NCBI GenBank assembly: GCA_027062325.1
Contig: JAMOTN010000055.1
Location: 1 to 27,002 of the forward strand
Direction: 5' to 3'
Length of the DNA stretch: 27,002 nucleotides
Source: a bacterium
Lineage (GTDB): Bacteria; JAMOTN01
Positions 4,123-26,437 of the stretch are shown piece after piece; the first letter of the stretch is position 1, and every line of letters starts with the position of its first letter. The translations under genes were made by a program, and so were the position numbers. The notes below the pieces were generated by a model, which saw only the letters and a list, made by a program, of their open reading frames with translations, did not search any database and had not been told where the DNA came from.

Positions 4123-6270
4123 ATGTATAGATTTATGATTAATCTTCTTGTTGCTTTCATTTTGTTAGTTGCCTTTACTAGCAGTGCGGATGGGGTCATA
4201 CTTCCTGTTAGATCCATTCCAGAACTTGGGTGGCGTGTATTTAAGATGAATTATCATCATGTAAAATTGGAAGTAAAAGGAGCAATTGCACGCGTTGAAA
4301 TTGAGGAAGAATTTGAGAATACCTCTAATAGGGAAGTAGAGGCTGTTTACTATTTCCCTTTGCCTCGAGAGAGCGTTGTTTCAAAGTTTGCAATAGAGGT
4401 AGATGGAAAGAGAAAAAATGCTCACATAGAGGATCAAAAAACGGCTCTAGATGAGTATTTGAAAATAGTAAGGCGTCTCAAGGATCCTGCACTTTTGTCA
4501 TATATTGGAGATGGAATTTTAAAGGTTCAACTGTTTCCTGTACCTCCACATGCAAAGAGAAAGATTTTTATAACTTATATTCAGGCTGTAAAGTTTGATG
4601 ATTACGGAGTTACTAAGGTTTTCAGCGTTCGTTATCCGTTTTTACTGGATAAATATGTAAGAGAATTTAAAAATCTTGTGATAGAAGCGAAGTTGCCTCC
4701 GGCTTACAGAGTGGAAGTTGATGGAATAGATGTTCGTAAAGAAAAATTGAAAGATGGTTGGTTTATTTCAGTAGAGAAAACAAAAGTGAAGCCCCAAAAA
4801 GATATAGTCTTCAAGTGGTACGCAAGCAGCATTAAAACGGCATTAGTATTGGCAAGTACGGGGTATTGGCATGGTAGAGGGCATGCTTACTTGAGGATAA
4901 TGCCTAACTTTGAATTTGATCCAATGCCAAGAGATGTTGTTGTGGTGTTAGATGTTTCAGGGAGCATGTCAGGAGATAAGTTGGGAGCGGCTGTTGATTC
5001 AATAAAGCAGCTTTTGAGGCAGATAGGAAGGAAGGATAGAGTGTTTATCATACCTTTTGCAAGTGGTGTTATGCCTATCGGAGATGGATTGATTAAGGTT
5101 GATAAAACTGCAAAGAAAAAATTGGCTCAAGAGCTTGATAATCTATTTGCAGCAGGGGGAACCAACATATACGATGCCCTCTACCGAGGATTGATTGAGC
5201 TAGCCAAGTCAAAAGATAAGGGAAGATTAAAGCTTTTGATATTTGTGACGGATGGAATACCAACTGTGGGTGAAGTTGATCCTAAGAGGATTGTTAGAAT
5301 GGTGGAGAGTCTTAATGCTGATGTTACAGGCTTTATTGTTGGGATAGGAGAAGATGTCAACAGTGTGTTGTTAAATAGAATAGCGGACACTTTGTCGGGA
5401 AAAGTGTTGTACGTCAAAAGTGATGAAGAAGAGGTGCGGGAAGGGTTGTTGAGAGTTTTTGAGTCAGTTTCGCGCCCAGCTATTAAAGTAAATAGTGCGG
5501 ACTTTGGGCTTATTCACGTTTATCCTCCTCGTCTAAGAGTTATCTTTGCAAAAGATCCCTTTGTTGTAGCTGGCATTTACCAAAAACCGGGAACTTACGA
5601 GGTTATGATAAGGGGAAAAGTTTTGGATAAAGATGTGGTGTGGAAGTTCAAATTACACTATTCTTCTGAAGAAAACCAAGAGGCGGCAAAAATGTGGGCA
5701 GAGACTGCATGTGCTTGGTTGCTGGATCAGATTAGATTTGAAGGTGAGAAGAAAGAACTTGTGGATGATCTGAAAAGACTAGCTGAGGAGTATGAAATAG
5801 TGACTCCTTACACATCTTTTTTGGTAAAGGAAAAGTTGTTGCCGGTTGCTTCGAGTAGAAATGTAAGTTTTGATTTTAGGAAAAGTGTTGGAAGTAAGGC
5901 TGTTAAAGTGAGTGAGGCTTTAGCAATGGCAAAGGGAGTGAGAGTTAACAAAAGTGGCTCATTTGCCTCGCCTTTATCTTTGGCAGAGGTGTTTTTAGGA
6001 AGAGAGACTAAAACTATAAATGGCGCCAAGTTTATAAAAACGGATAAGGGATATGTTCAACTTGGGAAAGCTGTTCCGCAGCATGTTAAGATAAAGATTT
6101 TCTCTGATGCATACATATGGCTTGTGAAAAAGTATCCAGAACTAGCTAAGTACTTACAATTGGGAAAGGTGAGCTTTGTATGGCGCGGAGTTAGGTTTGA
6201 AATAGCAGAGGATGGAGTTGAGGATGCAGAAGCTTTGGAAAGTGTGTTGGAAGGATTACTGACTGATTAG
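4123..6270 (+). CDS. Exported VIT + von Willebrand factor A domain protein
   Basis: The ATG at 4123 is preferred because GAGGTGAT lies six bases upstream. An in-frame GTG at 4114 falls inside that site. The 715-residue protein starts with a signal peptide (MYRFMINLLVAFILLVAF, cleaved near residue 23). A VIT domain follows at about 40-165, including FPLPRESVVSKFAIEVDG and EDQKTALDEYLKIV. A vWA domain at about 270-455 carries the metal-site motif DVSGSMS (Asp277, Ser279, Ser281), GGTNIYDA and FVTDGIPTVG. The C-terminal helical region (YEIVTPYTSFLVKE) is typical of VIT/vWA proteins related to inter-alpha-trypsin inhibitor heavy chains. Such domains bind ligands through a bound divalent cation. 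No enzyme activity is indicated. The next gene, 17 bases on, encodes another exported vWA protein, so the pair probably acts together at the cell surface or periplasm. Confidence 0.92.
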   Translation: MYRFMINLLVAFILLVAFTSSADGVILPVRSIPELGWRVFKMNYHHVKLEVKGAIARVEIEEEFENTSNREVEAVYYFPLPRESVVSKFAIEVDGKRKNAHIEDQKTALDEYLKIVRRLKDPALLSYIGDGILKVQLFPVPPHAKRKIFITYIQAVKFDDYGVTKVFSVRYPFLLDKYVREFKNLVIEAKLPPAYRVEVDGIDVRKEKLKDGWFISVEKTKVKPQKDIVFKWYASSIKTALVLASTGYWHGRGHAYLRIMPNFEFDPMPRDVVVVLDVSGSMSGDKLGAAVDSIKQLLRQIGRKDRVFIIPFASGVMPIGDGLIKVDKTAKKKLAQELDNLFAAGGTNIYDALYRGLIELAKSKDKGRLKLLIFVTDGIPTVGEVDPKRIVRMVESLNADVTGFIVGIGEDVNSVLLNRIADTLSGKVLYVKSDEEEVREGLLRVFESVSRPAIKVNSADFGLIHVYPPRLRVIFAKDPFVVAGIYQKPGTYEVMIRGKVLDKDVVWKFKLHYSSEENQEAAKMWAETACAWLLDQIRFEGEKKELVDDLKRLAEEYEIVTPYTSFLVKEKLLPVASSRNVSFDFRKSVGSKAVKVSEALAMAKGVRVNKSGSFASPLSLAEVFLGRETKTINGAKFIKTDKGYVQLGKAVPQHVKIKIFSDAYIWLVKKYPELAKYLQLGKVSFVWRGVRFEIAEDGVEDAEALESVLEGLLTD

Positions 6271-12917: not shown

Positions 12918-13127
12918 ATGCCTACTTATAAGTGGAGATGTGAAAAGTGCGGTTACTCCTTTGAGGAGTTCGTGAGACCTGGAATTGATGAAGAGCCAAC
13001 TGAATGTCCAAAATGTGGGGGAGAACTTTCAAAAATGATAAATTGGGCAGGGGCTGTTGCAGGAGTTGAGAGCGGTTCGAGTTGTAGTGTTTGCTCAACT
13101 GGAAGTTGTCCTACATGCAGTCTATAA
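12918..13127 (+). CDS. FmdB-type zinc-ribbon protein with a second Cys cluster
   Basis: The 69-residue protein starts MPTYKWRCEKCGYSFEEFVR, the FmdB regulatory-protein family opening, and has the zinc-ribbon cysteines Cys8, Cys11, Cys30 and Cys33. A second cluster at the C-terminus, CSVCSTGSCPTC (Cys56, 59, 64, 67), could bind another metal ion. Such Ser/Gly/Cys tails occur in some family members. The family is named after a putative regulator near formylmethanofuran/amide genes, but its real function is poorly known. The ATG has a strong GGGGGGAGG site. The following exported-protein gene begins 23 bases after the stop. Confidence 0.88.
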   Translation: MPTYKWRCEKCGYSFEEFVRPGIDEEPTECPKCGGELSKMINWAGAVAGVESGSSCSVCSTGSCPTCSL

Positions 13128-13150
13128 ATTTTTTTGCGGGAGTGGTTTGT

Positions 13151-13945
13151 ATGTGGCGTAAGTTTCTTGTTTTTCTGATCATTTCTGTATGCATGTTTGG
13201 GTTTGCACTATCTAGATTGGATGAGGAAGGAATGACACCTCCAGCTGGAGCGCAAGTTGCTGCTCCGCAGATTGATATGAAGGATTTTTCCCAGCTTATG
13301 CAGAGGATAAACTCCCATCCTTTCATGCAGAAAAAGATGCAGTTAGATATGAAGATCAATCAATTGATGGAGGAGTTGATGAATAAATTGGGACCTGATA
13401 TTGTTACCAAAATCTTTTCTAGCCCTGAATTTACTGGAAAGATGTCTGCTTTGAAAGAAAATTTGCGTCGGACAATTACAGCTTCTCAGGGAGATATTAC
13501 TACTGATCAGTTGAAGAAGTTGACGCTTGATATGATGTTTAAAAATGATGAGGTAGTAAAAACTGTGCTAGATAATGTTCAGAAGCTGATAGTAAATCTA
13601 AATGCTGATCGGCAGGCGCAGCTTAAGAAACTGCTCTCAGAGATTGAAAACTTGGTTGGACAAGTTGATAGTTTGGTGAGAAGTAGTGAGTTTGACAAGT
13701 TTATAAAAGATAATTTTGCTGATTTGAAAAAGTTTTATTCGGATTACCTTCCTAAGCTTATGGGGAATGTTCAGCAGGAGATACACCATGAGACCAACAA
13801 AACAATGGAAGAAGTACATCAAAATTTAAAAGATGTGAACAATGAAATTCAGAAAGAGCACGAAGAATTTAATAGAGACTTGAATAAAGATATGAATGAT
13901 TTGAATAGCGACCTCAAAGATATGATGAACGACTTAGGTAACTAG
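13151..13945 (+). CDS. Exported coiled-coil protein, unrecognised
   Basis: The ATG at 13151 has GGGAGTGG about eight bases upstream and opens a signal peptide (MWRKFLVFLIISVCMFGFAL, cleavage near residue 21). An in-frame start at 13091 would overlap the zinc-ribbon gene and lacks support. The 264-residue product is Met- and Gln-rich at the N-terminus (PPAGAQVAAPQ), then almost wholly helical. The last 60 residues (HHETNKTMEEVHQNLKDVNN and onward) form a repeating Asp/Asn/Leu coiled coil with 7- or 11-residue spacing. No family was recognised. The architecture suits a periplasmic or surface-associated structural or chaperone-like protein. A hairpin follows the stop. Confidence 0.7.
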   Translation: MWRKFLVFLIISVCMFGFALSRLDEEGMTPPAGAQVAAPQIDMKDFSQLMQRINSHPFMQKKMQLDMKINQLMEELMNKLGPDIVTKIFSSPEFTGKMSALKENLRRTITASQGDITTDQLKKLTLDMMFKNDEVVKTVLDNVQKLIVNLNADRQAQLKKLLSEIENLVGQVDSLVRSSEFDKFIKDNFADLKKFYSDYLPKLMGNVQQEIHHETNKTMEEVHQNLKDVNNEIQKEHEEFNRDLNKDMNDLNSDLKDMMNDLGN

Positions 13946-13955
13946 AAAGCTTTTG

Positions 13956-13979
13956 TGAGGGGGTGATAAAGCCCCCTCA
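13956..13979 (+). terminator. GC hairpin after the coiled-coil gene
   Basis: TGAGGGGG pairs with CCCCCTCA (8 bp, loop of 8). The tail is only ATTCTACTT, so termination may be partial. The next gene's ribosome binding site (GGAGG) lies 18 bases downstream. Confidence 0.5.
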
Positions 13980-14009
13980 TTCTACTTAAGTTTGTGGAGG
14001 TCAAAGTCT

Positions 14010-14855
14010 ATGATTGGTAAAATAAAAGGAATGTTGCTGTGCCTTGTCTTTGTAACAGGAACTATTATTTTAGCATTTGTACCTTCCGATGAAATTGACT
14101 TTCTTCCTCCAGGAATTAGTGATGTTTTTATCTCCAATGCTCGGGTTTCATCTGTGGAAGTTAAAGTATCACAGTTAACAGATGATTTGCTAAATGAAGC
14201 TAAAATCTATAGCGTCAAAGTTCAAAGGGGAGTATTATTGGATTCACTGAAAAATATTAGAAATAGAGGTTTAGATTATTTAATAATGCTGTTAAAACAA
14301 GACTGGAGGTATCAATCATATACTTTACTACCAACTGTTAGGACTTTTGAATTTTTTTCAAAGTTGATTGCTGATTTTCCAATGGTTTTTCAAAATTTTG
14401 AAAGTTTAAAAATGGCTTACTACACTTATTTTCCAGACATTGTTAAAGCTTTTTTGTTCAAAGATGAGACAATGGTCAGATTATTGGCAAAGTACATGTT
14501 TTCTTTCTTACTCGAGCTCCATAGAAAAGGTGGACCAAAAGGATTTTTAATGCCTTCAGGAACAGTTTTAATATTATCTAACTTATTCAAAGATGTGGCT
14601 AGATTGATGAAGTTGGATTTTTCGGTAGCCCAAGTTGTTGCTGGATCTGGATTGGTGTTTTTAAATTATGATGCCTACAAGCTTTTTATACAGCAGTTTG
14701 CTAGCGAGGTTAATAGAGAGGTAGGCTATGTTAATATGAATAAAGAGGCAGCCTATGCTTATTTGGAGTGGAGAAAGATTTCTGCTTTGTGGTTGGATTG
14801 TCTAAAAGTTGCTAAATTATTGGGAAATGTTAATGAGAAAAGGAGAGAAAAGTGA
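14010..14855 (+). CDS. Unrecognised exported or membrane-anchored protein
   Basis: The ATG at 14010 has GGAGGTC eight or so bases upstream. A TTG at 13992 lies ahead of that site and is rejected. The 281-residue product has an N-terminal hydrophobic segment (GMLLCLVFVTGTIILAFVPS, about residues 7-26). That is followed by a short beta-like part and a helical remainder (residues 60-270) rich in Leu, Phe and Lys. Two internal segments (about 180-198 and 206-225) are mildly hydrophobic but are read here as amphipathic helices. No domain or motif was recognised. It may share the FmdB/coiled-coil transcript if the hairpin upstream is leaky. A good extended -10 for metG begins just past its stop. 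Confidence 0.65.
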   Translation: MIGKIKGMLLCLVFVTGTIILAFVPSDEIDFLPPGISDVFISNARVSSVEVKVSQLTDDLLNEAKIYSVKVQRGVLLDSLKNIRNRGLDYLIMLLKQDWRYQSYTLLPTVRTFEFFSKLIADFPMVFQNFESLKMAYYTYFPDIVKAFLFKDETMVRLLAKYMFSFLLELHRKGGPKGFLMPSGTVLILSNLFKDVARLMKLDFSVAQVVAGSGLVFLNYDAYKLFIQQFASEVNREVGYVNMNKEAAYAYLEWRKISALWLDCLKVAKLLGNVNEKRREK

Positions 14856-16436: not shown

Positions 16437-16889
16437 ATGTTCAAAGGTGTTGAATTTCAGGTGGGAGAGGAGTTTTTTGTAGCTGATATAAACTATATAA
16501 GAGAGGTCATCTCGTGGCAAGAGGTTTCTAAAGTTCCTAACGTACCAGAGTTCGTTGAGGGTATAATAAATTTGAGAGGAAAGGTTATACCAGTTGTTGA
16601 TCTGGCGAAACGCTTCAATTTTGAGGTGAAAATAGATAATACGAAGCGAAAGATAATGATAGTACAGGTATTTGAAAAACTTGTTGGAATAATAGTTGAC
16701 AATGTTACACGAGTAATTGATGTGACGGATGAAATGATAGATGACACAGATATACTTCAAAATGTTGCAAATACTGTAGCTGGATATTTAAAAGGAGTTG
16801 CTAAAATAGGAGAAAAATTGGTTATGATAATAGACTTGGAAGCTTTGTTCTCGCCAGAGGAGAGGGAACGTCTCACAGCAATGAAATAA
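16437..16889 (+). CDS. cheW: CheW chemotaxis adaptor
   Basis: The 150-residue protein is one CheW domain. It couples receptors to the CheA kinase in the cytoplasmic signalling array. Typical blocks are FQVGEEFFVADINYIREVI (7-25), VPEFVEGIINLRGKVIPVVD (residues 36-55), MIVQVFEKLVGIIVDNVTRV and the C-terminal VAKIGEKLVMIIDLEALF. AAGGAGG lies within the metG end, and the gap to metG is 3 bases, so translational coupling is likely. The next gene follows after 42 bases. Two further CheW-like domains are encoded downstream in the two kinase halves. Confidence 0.95.
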   Translation: MFKGVEFQVGEEFFVADINYIREVISWQEVSKVPNVPEFVEGIINLRGKVIPVVDLAKRFNFEVKIDNTKRKIMIVQVFEKLVGIIVDNVTRVIDVTDEMIDDTDILQNVANTVAGYLKGVAKIGEKLVMIIDLEALFSPEERERLTAMK

Positions 16890-16931
16890 GAAGATGAGCT
16901 GATAGTGATGAAGCTCAAAGGGGTGAGATAG

Positions 16932-18197
16932 TTGGAAGATAAAGAGTTGCTTGAAATGTTTATTGTTGAAGCAAAGGAGCATCTTGAAAATGCGAATAAT
17001 ATAATGCTTGATTTGGAGCAGAATCCTGATGATAAAGATAAGCTAAATGAGTTATTTAGAGCGATGCACACTATCAAAGGTGCTGCAGGTTTTTTGGGAT
17101 TAGTTGAAATTCAAGAGCTTTCGCATAAAATGGAAACGGTTCTTGATAAGTGTCGTGGTGGTGAGCTGAAATTTGAGGGAGATATACCTGATCTTATGTT
17201 TAAAGGGATTGATATGTTAGTGGAGATGGTTGATAAGTTAGAAGCTGGAGAAGAAAATTGGCAGGTTGATGTCTCTGAGGTTGTTGAGGCTTTAATAAAG
17301 ATAGCAGAGAGTGGTTCGTCATCTACTGAGGAGAAAAAAGAGAAAAAGGAGAAAAAGAGCACCAAAAAGAAGGCTACAAAGAAAAAATCGAAGAAGAAGG
17401 AAGAGAAGGAGGAATCGAAAGAAGAGGATGAGTCTGGGTCTGAAGAATCTTCTACTCAAGTAGAAACCACCGTTCAAATAGACGAGGAGTTACTCAAACA
17501 AATTGCTGAAGAGTACGATAAGCAAGTGCAAGCTCTTCAGGATGAGATTAAGAAGAAAAAAGAGGAGAAAAAAGAGGAATCAAAAGAAGAGGAGCAGGAA
17601 GAGGAGCAGGTTAAGGAGGACATATACTTGATATTCGAGGTAGAAGGTATCCGCTATCTATTACCAGCCACTAAAGTTTTGGAAGTTACGGAACTTTTGA
17701 GGACCACAACGGTTCCTGATACACCGCTTTTTGTAGAGGGAGTTGCAAATTTACGCGGGAGCATAATCACTGTTTTTAATACAGATGTTTTCTTTGAAAG
17801 TCCGGATTTAAAAAAGGTGGAATTGGTTACTGGAGTTTCTGGAAATACTTCCCAAAAATCTATTGAGGAAGCTGGTGGAGAGGGTGCTAAAAAGGAAGAG
17901 GCACATTCCTCCAACAATGATGTAATGGATAATGTGTTTGTTGATGATGAGAGAAAGGTTGTGGTAATGGAGACAGAAGCTTACGGGACTATGGGTGTGA
18001 TAGTTGACAAAGTTTTGGTTGTTAAGAGAATTTCAGATAAAGAATTTGTGCAGTATCCTGGTGTTAAGGGGAGAGAATTTTTCAAAAGAATTTACAAAGA
18101 TGATCAAGGAGTAGTGATAGAACTTGATTTTGAGGAGATGCTTAAGATAAAAACAGAAAAAGAATGGAAAAAAGGTAAGAAGGAGAGAAGGGTATGA
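16932..18197 (+). CDS. Hpt-linker-CheW protein (phosphotransfer half of a split CheA)
   Basis: The 421-residue protein begins at a TTG with GGGGTGA seven or so bases upstream. Residues 1-115 are a CheA-type Hpt (P1) domain with phosphoryl-accepting His46 in LFRAMHTIKGAAGFLG. Residues about 130-228 are a low-complexity linker of Lys, Glu and Ser, mostly homopurine at DNA level, with one coiled-coil-like piece (186-206). Residues about 228-420 are a CheW-like (P5) domain (VEGIRYLLPATKVLEVTELL, VEGVANLRGSIITVFN) interrupted by a Ser/Gly/Glu-rich insertion near 300-335. There is no dimerisation domain, no ATPase and no CheY-binding P2. It should be phosphorylated in trans by the product of the overlapping gene. 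The end overlaps that gene by four bases (ATGA). Confidence 0.93.
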   Translation: MEDKELLEMFIVEAKEHLENANNIMLDLEQNPDDKDKLNELFRAMHTIKGAAGFLGLVEIQELSHKMETVLDKCRGGELKFEGDIPDLMFKGIDMLVEMVDKLEAGEENWQVDVSEVVEALIKIAESGSSSTEEKKEKKEKKSTKKKATKKKSKKKEEKEESKEEDESGSEESSTQVETTVQIDEELLKQIAEEYDKQVQALQDEIKKKKEEKKEESKEEEQEEEQVKEDIYLIFEVEGIRYLLPATKVLEVTELLRTTTVPDTPLFVEGVANLRGSIITVFNTDVFFESPDLKKVELVTGVSGNTSQKSIEEAGGEGAKKEEAHSSNNDVMDNVFVDDERKVVVMETEAYGTMGVIVDKVLVVKRISDKEFVQYPGVKGREFFKRIYKDDQGVVIELDFEEMLKIKTEKEWKKGKKERRV

Positions 18198-19399
18198 GTG
18201 TGACAAAGACAGTACGCGTTGATGTTGAACGTCTTGATGAATTGATGAAGTTGATTGGGGAGCTTGTCATCAACAGAACGCGCCTTTCAAAAATTGCCAA
18301 AGATGTGGAAGATGAAAGTGTTGATCGTGACACTTTAAAACGTGAAATGATGATGGCAGCAGGGTATATAGGGCGTATATCAACGGAGTTGCAAGAGCAG
18401 ATAATGAAGATGCGTATGGTTCCAATTTCACAGCTTTTTGGGCGTTTTCCGCGCATTGTACGTGATTTGTCTAAAAAACTGAATAAAAAAGTCCAACTAG
18501 TTATGGAAGGTCAGGAGACAGAGCTTGATAGGAATATTGTTGAAACACTATCTGATCCAATGGTTCACATTATAAGAAATGCTATAGATCATGGAATAGA
18601 ATTGCCAGAAGAACGTGCGATGGCTGGAAAGCCAGAAATTGGAACGATAAAACTTATAGCATATCATGAGGGAAATAATATTGTTGTTATTGTTGAGGAT
18701 GACGGTCGTGGAATAGATCCAGAAAAAATTGCTAAGAAGGCATTGGAAAAAGGATTAGTAACACAGGAAAAATTAGCACGTATGTCAAAGCGTGAGATTT
18801 TGAACTTGATATTTATGCCTGGATTTTCAACTGCGGATAAGGTAACGGATTTGTCCGGACGTGGTGTTGGAATGGATGTTGTGGCTACTGCTGTTGAAAA
18901 GTTAAAAGGAAGTGTGGAAGTTGATAGTAAAATTGGAGAGGGAACACGTATAATAATGAAGTTGCCTCTGACTTTGGCAATACTAGAGGTCTTCTTGTTC
19001 AAAAGTGGTGAGGACATATTTGCGATTCCTCTCAACGTTGTCAACGAGGTCATACCCATAAAGCTTTCGGATATTAGGGAAATTGGAGGAGAAAAGCTAA
19101 TAACTATAAGAGGGGATGTGTACAAGGTAGCAGCACTTCCAGATGTTATGAGCCGTGTTAAATTTGAACCTAAAGATGATAAGGCATATGTGATTATTGT
19201 ATCAATTGCAGAAAAAAGATTTGGAATACTGATAGATGGTCTTGTAGGACAAGATGAGATAGTTGTTAAATCTCTTGGAAATTATTTAGCTGGACTACAA
19301 GGGATTTCTGGTGTTACAATATTAGGAGACGGGCGTGTCATATTGATTATGGATGTGGCAGGATTTTACAGGAAAATGGAAGAGATGCAGGAGGTTTAA
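18194..19399 (+). CDS. CheA kinase core without Hpt domain (catalytic half of a split CheA)
   Basis: The 401-residue protein contains only P3-P4-P5 of CheA. The dimerisation helices come first (about 1-75, VERLDELMKLIGELVINRTR), then an HATPase domain (about 80-265) with the N box HIIRNAIDHGIE (Asn129), G1 DDGRGID (169-175), the PGFSTADKVTDLSGRGVGMD lid region, and GEGTRI (248-253). The C-terminal CheW-like P5 domain (about 265-400) contains FAIPLNVVNEVIPI. All catalytic boxes appear intact. There is no histidine phosphotransfer domain and no P2. The ATG overlaps the preceding Hpt gene by four bases, with AAGGAGAG upstream. CheA cores that phosphorylate a separate Hpt protein are known (Rhodobacter sphaeroides CheA4 acting on CheA3), and this pair has the same domain split. 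Confidence 0.95.
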   Translation: MSVTKTVRVDVERLDELMKLIGELVINRTRLSKIAKDVEDESVDRDTLKREMMMAAGYIGRISTELQEQIMKMRMVPISQLFGRFPRIVRDLSKKLNKKVQLVMEGQETELDRNIVETLSDPMVHIIRNAIDHGIELPEERAMAGKPEIGTIKLIAYHEGNNIVVIVEDDGRGIDPEKIAKKALEKGLVTQEKLARMSKREILNLIFMPGFSTADKVTDLSGRGVGMDVVATAVEKLKGSVEVDSKIGEGTRIIMKLPLTLAILEVFLFKSGEDIFAIPLNVVNEVIPIKLSDIREIGGEKLITIRGDVYKVAALPDVMSRVKFEPKDDKAYVIIVSIAEKRFGILIDGLVGQDEIVVKSLGNYLAGLQGISGVTILGDGRVILIMDVAGFYRKMEEMQEV

Positions 19400-19440: not shown

Positions 19441-19710
19441 ATGGCGGAGGTACTTAAAGTGGCAAGCAAATCTGATCCTAAGAAAGTAGCAGGAGCTATT
19501 GCTGCAGTTATTGAAAAGGATAAAGAAGAGGTGGAAATCCATGCAGTAGGTGCGGCTGCTGTTAATCAGGCGATAAAGGCGGTTGCAATTGCACGTGGTT
19601 ATGTTGCTCCAAAAGGGTTTAATTTGATTGCAGTTCCAGCTTTCACTAAGGTGGAGATTAATGGAGAGGAAAAGACAGCGATAAAGTTGATAGTTAGATC
19701 TCAGAAGTAG
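19441..19710 (+). CDS. SpoVS-family protein
   Basis: The 89-residue protein matches the SpoVS family throughout: VLKVASKSDPKKVAGAIAAV, EVEIHAVGAAAVNQAIKAVA, IARGYVAPKGFNLIAVPAF and the C-terminal KTAIKLIVRS. SpoVS is an Alba-fold-like small protein, likely nucleic-acid binding, first known from sporulation control in Bacillus but also present in non-sporulating bacteria. GGGAGGG precedes the ATG, 42 bases after the CheA core stop, and a strong terminator follows, so it closes the metG-chemotaxis unit. Nothing in the window points to sporulation. Confidence 0.95.
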   Translation: MAEVLKVASKSDPKKVAGAIAAVIEKDKEEVEIHAVGAAAVNQAIKAVAIARGYVAPKGFNLIAVPAFTKVEINGEEKTAIKLIVRSQK

Positions 19711-24964: not shown

Positions 24965-26437
24965 ATGAAAAAAATTGCTCACGTGGAGTTGCCTGTGAAG
25001 TTAGAAAGTTTGAGGGTGAGTGTTTATTTCATTAGGGTTTTGCTTGAAACTTTGGATTTGCCAGAGGATATAGTAATGGCTTTAGAGGTTGCTGCAGAAG
25101 AAGTTATAAGTAATGTGATTGAACACTCTGGTCTTACGGAGGAGGATTTTTTTGAACTTGATGTTTGGAATAGAGCAGGAGCAATAGAAGTAGTTATAAG
25201 AGAAAAAGGAGTCCCGGTGAGTTTGGATGAGGAGTTAGAACGAGTTTTTGATAAAACTGCCGAAGATTTTGTGGAAAATCCTGAAGAAAAGGGATTGGGA
25301 TTTTACATTTTAAACAGATTGGTTGATGAAGTCGAGTTTCACTACGAGGCTAGACGTGGAAAGGTCATAAAACTTGTTAAAAGATTGCCCTATGATTCAA
25401 TTTTGAGTGAGAAGAGGAGAGAATATGATTTTGAGGTTGACTTCTCTTTGTTGAAGAGTGGTTTTTTAGGTCCGGATGATGCCTTGTTGATTTCTCAGTG
25501 TATATGGCACGTCTATGGATACAGCTACTTATGGGATGTGGTGTATTATCCTCAAAAACTTGCAAAGTACATAGAGAGTGGAGATATTATTCCTTATGGT
25601 TACTGGTATGAGCTGGAAGGAGAAAAGAGATTGGTGGCTCACTGTGCTTTGGAGAATCCTGGTGATTGGTTCACAGATGTTGAGATAGGTATGGCAGTTG
25701 TAGTTAAAAATGTAAGAAAAAAGGGGCTTTTGAAAGTTATGACGGATAAGCTCATAGAATTTGCAAAGAATAAATTACGAAAAAAGGCAGTTTTTGTCCA
25801 AGCAGTGGCAAATCATCCTGTTTCTCAGAGAGTTGCTTTGAAAAATGGTTTTGTACCTACTGCTTTTTTGCTTTCATTTTTACCGGCGGGAATGAACTTT
25901 GATGGTTCTGGTCTAAACAAGAGGGGAGCTGTGGTTGTATTTTACAAAGTTTTTGAAAGAGATAAAAAAGTTTTATTTGTTCCTTTCAAGTATGCTGATT
26001 TTGTAGAAGGAATTTATAAAAGCTTGAAGTTGGAAATTAACATAATTTATCCAGAGTTGAGTTGGGATGAAGCAAAAGTTGCAAGTGAAGTGAAGACTTT
26101 ATGGAGAGAAGATCAAAAATCTGGCTATGTTTTTATAAAAAGAGCGGGTTTTGATCTTGTCAGGATACTTGAAGAAAGAATAAGAAGTTTTAAAGCAAAG
26201 GGAGCGGCAAGTTGCTATGTGGATGTATGTTTAGAAGATGAAAAAACGGCTTCTTTTGTTGATTGGTTATTGTTAGACGGTTTTACTGTTGCAGGAATTT
26301 TACCAGAGCATATTGAGGGAGAAGATTACTTGAGAATGCAGTGGATAGATAAAGATAATTCTGAAACCAAAGAATTTGAGCTTGTAGATGAGGTTTCAGG
26401 ATTGGTTAAATATGTTTTATCAGAGGTTGGATTTTAA
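24965..26437 (+). CDS. RsbW-like switch ATPase fused to GNAT-type domain(s)
   Basis: The 490-residue protein has at least three parts. Residues 1-143 are a serine kinase/anti-sigma-type HATPase (HATPase_c_2). The N box is EVAAEEVISNVIEHS (37-51), the G1 position reads REKGVP where DxGxP is usual (Glu in place of Asp), and the later glycine motif is EKGLGFYILNRL. Residues about 155-325 are a GNAT-type acyltransferase domain with the acetyl-CoA loop near VRKKGLLKVM and the final AVANHPVSQRVALKNGFV block. The C-terminal part (about 330-490) ends like a second GNAT fold (SFVDWLLLDGFTVAGILPEH) but lacks a clear acetyl-CoA loop. No sigma factor, STAS protein or PP2C phosphatase is nearby, so the partner is unknown. 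GGGAG precedes the ATG after the EamA terminator. Confidence 0.88.
   Translation: MKKIAHVELPVKLESLRVSVYFIRVLLETLDLPEDIVMALEVAAEEVISNVIEHSGLTEEDFFELDVWNRAGAIEVVIREKGVPVSLDEELERVFDKTAEDFVENPEEKGLGFYILNRLVDEVEFHYEARRGKVIKLVKRLPYDSILSEKRREYDFEVDFSLLKSGFLGPDDALLISQCIWHVYGYSYLWDVVYYPQKLAKYIESGDIIPYGYWYELEGEKRLVAHCALENPGDWFTDVEIGMAVVVKNVRKKGLLKVMTDKLIEFAKNKLRKKAVFVQAVANHPVSQRVALKNGFVPTAFLLSFLPAGMNFDGSGLNKRGAVVVFYKVFERDKKVLFVPFKYADFVEGIYKSLKLEINIIYPELSWDEAKVASEVKTLWREDQKSGYVFIKRAGFDLVRILEERIRSFKAKGAASCYVDVCLEDEKTASFVDWLLLDGFTVAGILPEHIEGEDYLRMQWIDKDNSETKEFELVDEVSGLVKYVLSEVGF

Follow-up and report, generated by a model that had tools for sequence, protein, structure and literature searches.

Two neighbouring genes, p1 and p2, probably encode the two parts of one bipartite CheA, which is the only chemotaxis kinase seen in the genome; we put the probability of this reading at roughly 0.78. 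The genes lie on contig C55 of a 1.65 Mb assembly that is 83.9% complete. This contig, 27,002 nucleotides long, was analysed as a whole and is referred to as the window; the genomes used for comparison share only domain-level kinship with the source bacterium. The open reading frames and Pfam matches showed that metG is followed on the + strand by cheW (16437-16889), p1 (16932-18197), p2 (18194-19399), and then a spoVS-like gene. The features of the locus are given below.

16437..16889, + strand: cheW, stand-alone adaptor of 150 aa, 3 bp after metG (Pfam CheW 123 bits; clusters with stand-alone CheW)
16919..16925, + strand: likely Shine-Dalgarno sequence AGGGGTG for p1, TTG start at 16932 (inferred by reading the sequence)
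16932..18197, + strand: p1, 421 aa, Hpt, K/E linker, and CheW fold; phosphoacceptor subunit (ORF, Pfam)
16944..17240, + strand: Hpt (P1) domain of p1, aa 5-103 (Pfam Hpt 64 bits)
17241..17624, + strand: linker of p1, aa 104-231 (composition, AlphaFold model)
17610..18149, + strand: CheW-family domain of p1, aa 227-406, with E251 and R275 (profiles, tree, columns, model)
17808..17945, + strand: insert of approximately 46 residues in the CheW domain of p1, aa 293-338, mostly of low model confidence (alignment, AlphaFold)
18176..18178, + strand: TAA closing the p2 frame, 15 bases 5' of the p2 ATG (sequence reading)
18180..18185, + strand: likely Shine-Dalgarno sequence AAGGAG of p2 (inferred by reading the sequence)
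18194..19399, + strand: p2, 401 aa, P3-P4-P5 CheA core without Hpt (ORF, Pfam, alignment with T. maritima CheA)
18206..18412, + strand: P3 dimerisation domain of p2, aa 5-73 (Pfam H-kinase_dim)
18554..18973, + strand: P4 ATPase domain of p2, aa 121-260 (Pfam HATPase_c)
18986..19366, + strand: P5 regulatory domain of p2, aa 265-391 (Pfam CheW 86 bits; P5 profile 133 vs CheW 24)

The Pfam domains of p1 and p2 all scored far above the cut-off. The Hpt domain of p1 contains His46 (codon CAC, 17067-17069, within AMHTIKGAAGFLGL), a residue that was invariant when the domain was aligned with 19 other CheA Hpt domains. AlphaFold modelled the domain as a helical bundle (pLDDT 93-98), and the nearest solved structures were the CheA P1 domains 2ld6 and 1tqg. 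According to Pfam, p2 begins directly with P3 and has no Hpt domain; its alignment with P3-P4-P5 of T. maritima CheA (371 bits) was unbroken, including the N, G1, F, and G2 boxes. These results agree with the first-pass annotation, which had placed His46 in an Hpt domain on the first protein and all of the ATPase boxes, but no Hpt, on the second.

The arginine codons of p2 were 18 CGN and 7 AGR, as compared with 342 and 719, respectively, elsewhere in the genome (p 1e-4), and the FliG and FliI-like genes shared this lean to CGN. We do not claim horizontal transfer of p2, since its codon usage overall ranked only ninth among the compared genes and the flagellar genes lean alike.

Lysine and glutamate made up 50% of the 128-aa linker of p1, whereas the 99 other CheA linkers between Hpt and P3 had a median of 18% and a maximum of 37%. 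The K/E linker, which had been pointed out as an oddity, is thus indeed unusual, exceeding every other linker measured. P2 was found in the linker neither by Pfam nor in the AlphaFold model. Its absence, also listed among the oddities, is therefore real but not odd, as approximately 52% of CheA proteins are without P2 (PMC10782961). The linker was modelled as disordered at approximately aa 131-184, followed by a 41-residue helix (aa 185-225); our guess is that this predicted helix could form a coiled coil that pairs p1.

The C-terminal domain of p1 appears to be derived from CheW and not from P5, a conclusion that is supported but not proven. Pfam CheW matched aa 232-403 in two stretches with 64 bits, and of the NCBIfam models the one for CheW matched whereas the one for P5 did not. 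When scored against a CheW profile made from 28 stand-alone CheW domains and a P5 profile made from 58 P5 domains, all from the collected loci, the p1 domain reached 63-66 bits with the former and 16-17 bits with the latter. The controls from the same locus gave 126 vs 33 (stand-alone CheW) and 24 vs 133 (P5 of p2). A column-by-column score, CheW minus P5, came to +78 bits for the p1 domain; the stand-alone CheW reached +133 and P5 of p2 -156, and a few columns of the p1 domain were P5-like. The invariant or near-invariant CheW residues F9, E25, P36, P39, G44, L48, R49, and G50 (domain numbering) are kept, and the CheW motif V-P-x-x-P-x-F-V-x-G-x-x-N-L-R-G is retained, whereas the P5 motif is missing. 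E251 and R275 of p1 are the equivalents of E38 and R62 of E. coli CheW, the salt bridge between which is required for CheW function (PMC3828127). The domain thus has the fold and the conserved residues, including the E38/R62 pair, of the CheW family. Pfam found no receiver domain in p1, so the protein is not a CheV.

Phylogenetic analysis pointed in the same direction. The careful tree grouped the p1 domain, which has a long branch, with CheW at a branch support of 100/100, but forcing it into P5 cost 9 log units and P5 membership was not rejected (AU p 0.143). A quick tree favoured P5, the search being too poor to decide. The AlphaFold model of the domain had a mean pLDDT of 79.6, with values of approximately 90 or higher over most of the body, and its Z-scores were 16.8-18.1 to the best CheW chains and 14.2-14.7 to P5; two NMR CheW models gave lower Z-scores than the best CheW chains. 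We gave less weight to this structural comparison, because the CheW rows used for the model bias it towards CheW. The annotation had spoken of two P5-bearing proteins. This part was not borne out, since the p1 domain sorts with the stand-alone CheW by profiles, tree, columns, NCBIfam, and structure, even if P5 is still allowed by the AU test.

Split CheA proteins are rare, and the best-studied pair is CheA3/CheA4, which comes from a bacterium that has other, complete CheA proteins. As in Rhodobacter (Cereibacter) sphaeroides CheA3/CheA4, a protein with Hpt and a C-terminal CheW fold and a P3-P4-P5 protein are encoded here in one operon. Each of the two R. sphaeroides proteins is inactive alone, and together they phosphorylate a CheY, in trans (PMC3591291, PMC6829392). 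The likeness to this pair drawn in the annotation holds for the bipartite CheA but probably not for a P5 on the Hpt protein: CheA3 ends in P5, whereas the p1 domain scores as CheW. Furthermore, the two proteins differ in their middle region, which in CheA3 comprises 794 residues, shows CheY6 phosphatase activity, and includes degenerate P3/P4, whereas in p1 it is approximately 130 residues long and had no Pfam match. Finally, p1/p2 is the only CheA seen in its genome, unlike CheA3/CheA4.

Berry et al. (2023) trace CheA3/CheA4 back to a duplication after which P3/P4 decayed in CheA3 (PMC10782961). p1 might be a remnant of the same type; its C-terminal domain would then be a P5 that diverged once a whole CheA had been duplicated and one of the copies had lost P3-P4. 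We consider this unlikely. The origin proposed for R. sphaeroides CheA3 (PMC10782961) provides the precedent, and the P5 grouping left by the AU test (p 0.143), together with the few P5-like columns of p1, speaks for it. On the other hand, the profiles prefer CheW by approximately 48 bits, the tree places the domain in CheW at 100/100, and it is the CheW motif that is kept and the P5 motif that is missing. In addition, no remnant of P3 or P4 was found in the linker of approximately 130 aa, which had no Pfam match and was modelled as disorder and one helix.

Other split systems resemble p1/p2 in part. Hamer et al. (2010) described short-linker CheA3-like Hpt-P5 proteins in Caldicellulosiruptor saccharolyticus, Anaerocellum, and Desulfuromonas acetoxidans (PMC2829493). 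C. saccharolyticus, which reportedly has a P1-P5 protein and a P3-P4-P5 protein in one genome, with fewer linker residues than CheA3, is the closest precedent by description (PMC2829493), and the p1/p2 split probably matches this kind, again as compared by description. For the bipartite CheA of Berry et al. (2023), the operon contains a separate Hpt gene (PMC10782961). This CheA is like p1/p2 in that Hpt comes from its own gene adjoining the rest of CheA, but a CheW-fold anchor is not mentioned for it (PMC10782961), whereas p1 has a CheW-fold domain. Hik36/Hik43 (PilL-N/PilL-C) of Synechocystis are likewise an interacting Hpt protein and kinase protein (PMC7656254); unlike p1 and p2, their genes are far apart, the kinase half carries a receiver, and the system controls type IV pili. 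Thus, a split CheA is in itself already known, and it is the apparent CheW adaptor on the Hpt half that may be new.

If p1 and p2 form one bipartite CheA, p2 would dimerise through P3, bind ATP through P4, and join the receptor array through P5. His46 of p1 would be the phosphorylatable residue, borne on a flexible K/E-rich tether that ends in the long helix and the CheW-family domain, and this domain could put p1 at a CheW position beside P5 or the receptors. There, P4 of p2 would phosphorylate His46 in trans. Phosphorylated p1 would then donate the phosphoryl group to CheY, which would act on the flagellar motor, and a CheC/CheX-type protein would reset CheY~P. The specific proposal that p1 joins a phosphoacceptor and a CheW adaptor in one protein, which would occupy CheW positions in the array and not be borne on the kinase dimer, is tentative, and we hold it at somewhat below even odds. 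If it is true, p1 competes with CheW for the sites beside P5, the ratio of phosphoacceptor to kinase is set by the CheW sites filled with p1, apart from the number of kinases, and the array design differs from that of CheA3/CheA4. Since p1/p2 seems to be the whole kinase of a small genome and its layout is short and simple, it makes a cleaner system for asking if P1 needs a tether to the kinase dimer, and one suited to asking if the phosphoacceptor can instead be recruited to the array by an adaptor domain.

The 84%-complete assembly contained one H-kinase_dim match, in p2, and one Hpt match, in p1. CheW domains were confined to cheW, p1, and p2, which bears out the three CheW-type modules claimed for the locus. 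A complete single-chain CheA, named beforehand as the finding that would speak against the split, was not found in the 84%-complete assembly. P1, P3, P4, and P5, which share one chain in a canonical CheA, are spread here over two ORFs, an Hpt protein and a neighbouring P3-P4-P5 protein of the same operon, as in a bipartite CheA. With one Hpt and one CheA core in the assembly, phosphorylation in trans, as the annotation had suggested, would be the sole route available. It follows that p1 and p2 should be each other's sole substrate and kinase, p2 being without another substrate and p1 without another kinase, provided that no further CheA is encoded in the sixth of the genome that is missing. 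The other contigs supplied eight receptor-signalling matches (seven over the cut-off), two single-domain CheY-like receivers (CheR immediately precedes one of these), one CheC/CheX-type phosphatase, FliG, and the FliI-like ATPase.

A working CheA in the missing part of the genome is the premise of another explanation, in which p1 is an accessory adaptor or a phosphate sink with a CheV-like role. The completeness of only 83.9% and the spread of the chemotaxis genes across contigs leave some room for this, but it would leave p2, with intact P3, P4, and P5, without a substrate. Moreover, the genes p1 and p2 lie side by side behind cheW and overlap, and all of the available sequence has a single Hpt and a single core. 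We therefore regard this explanation as very unlikely.

The junction of the two genes was as annotated, both ORFs being present and joined by an ATGA overlap (18194-18197). The TAA at 18176-18178 closes the p2 frame; therefore, a frameshift 5' of that stop cannot fuse p1 and p2, and a -1 frameshift fusion at the A-run near 18168-18173 is ruled out. A CheW domain before P3 was found in 0 of the approximately 105 other core-bearing CheA ORFs in the collected loci. Since the CheW fold precedes P3, a simple frameshift of one CheA cannot explain p1 and p2, as had been argued from the outset. As read from the sequence, the locus fits two genes, which may be translationally coupled: the overlap is 4 bases long, each gene has a putative ribosome-binding site of its own, and the p2 frame is closed. 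That p1 and p2 are an assembly or frameshift artefact of one longer protein is highly improbable: the overlap is a mere 4 bp and metagenome assemblies have such errors (in-frame stops in L052 and L159; runs of N in the CheA gene of L152), but the rejoined order, Hpt-CheW-P3-P4-P5, was seen in none of the approximately 105 ORFs, and p2 has its own Shine-Dalgarno sequence and start, with its frame shut by the TAA 15 bases 5'.

Some other genes of the window were recorded along with the kinase genes. The SpoVS-like gene directly 3' of these (19441-19710) had a weak Pfam match to Alba. At 24965-26437, Pfam showed a protein in which a GNAT acetyltransferase domain comes after an ATPase domain of the anti-sigma type (HATPase_c_2). 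Two adjoining proteins of approximately 285 aa are encoded at 13091-14855; Pfam did not match one of them at all, and its matches to the other were weak and below the threshold.

We surveyed 386 genomes and 80 GTDB loci for further split CheA genes. At the threshold used, a CheA core was present in 190 of the 386 genomes. Among the matches listed from these genomes and loci, a second split CheA was not found, as every candidate failed inspection and all of the other short-frame cores sit at a contig end or beside an error; these matches give only an approximate rate. G132, G198, G221, G286, and G322 were rejected on account of contig ends, G040 on account of runs of N, and G356/L159 on account of an in-frame stop inside P4. 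In L052, from the archaeal MAG Dive100_bin4.136, an in-frame TAA (5656-5658) lies inside P2 and is probably an error or the mark of a pseudogene. G023:C8 has an Hpt-only ORF of 373 aa with neither a core nor CheW adjoining. A plasmid search gave no protein spanning both halves of p1.

Other domain orders were seen in two of the loci. In the ADurb.Bin243 MAG (L102, 1252-7932), a CheA is ordered P3-P4-CheW-Hpt, with Hpt at the C-terminus, and its neighbours are a second CheA, which begins with two Hpt domains, and another ORF with Hpt. An ORF of G386 (L182, 244-2046) has approximately four tandem CheW-type domains.
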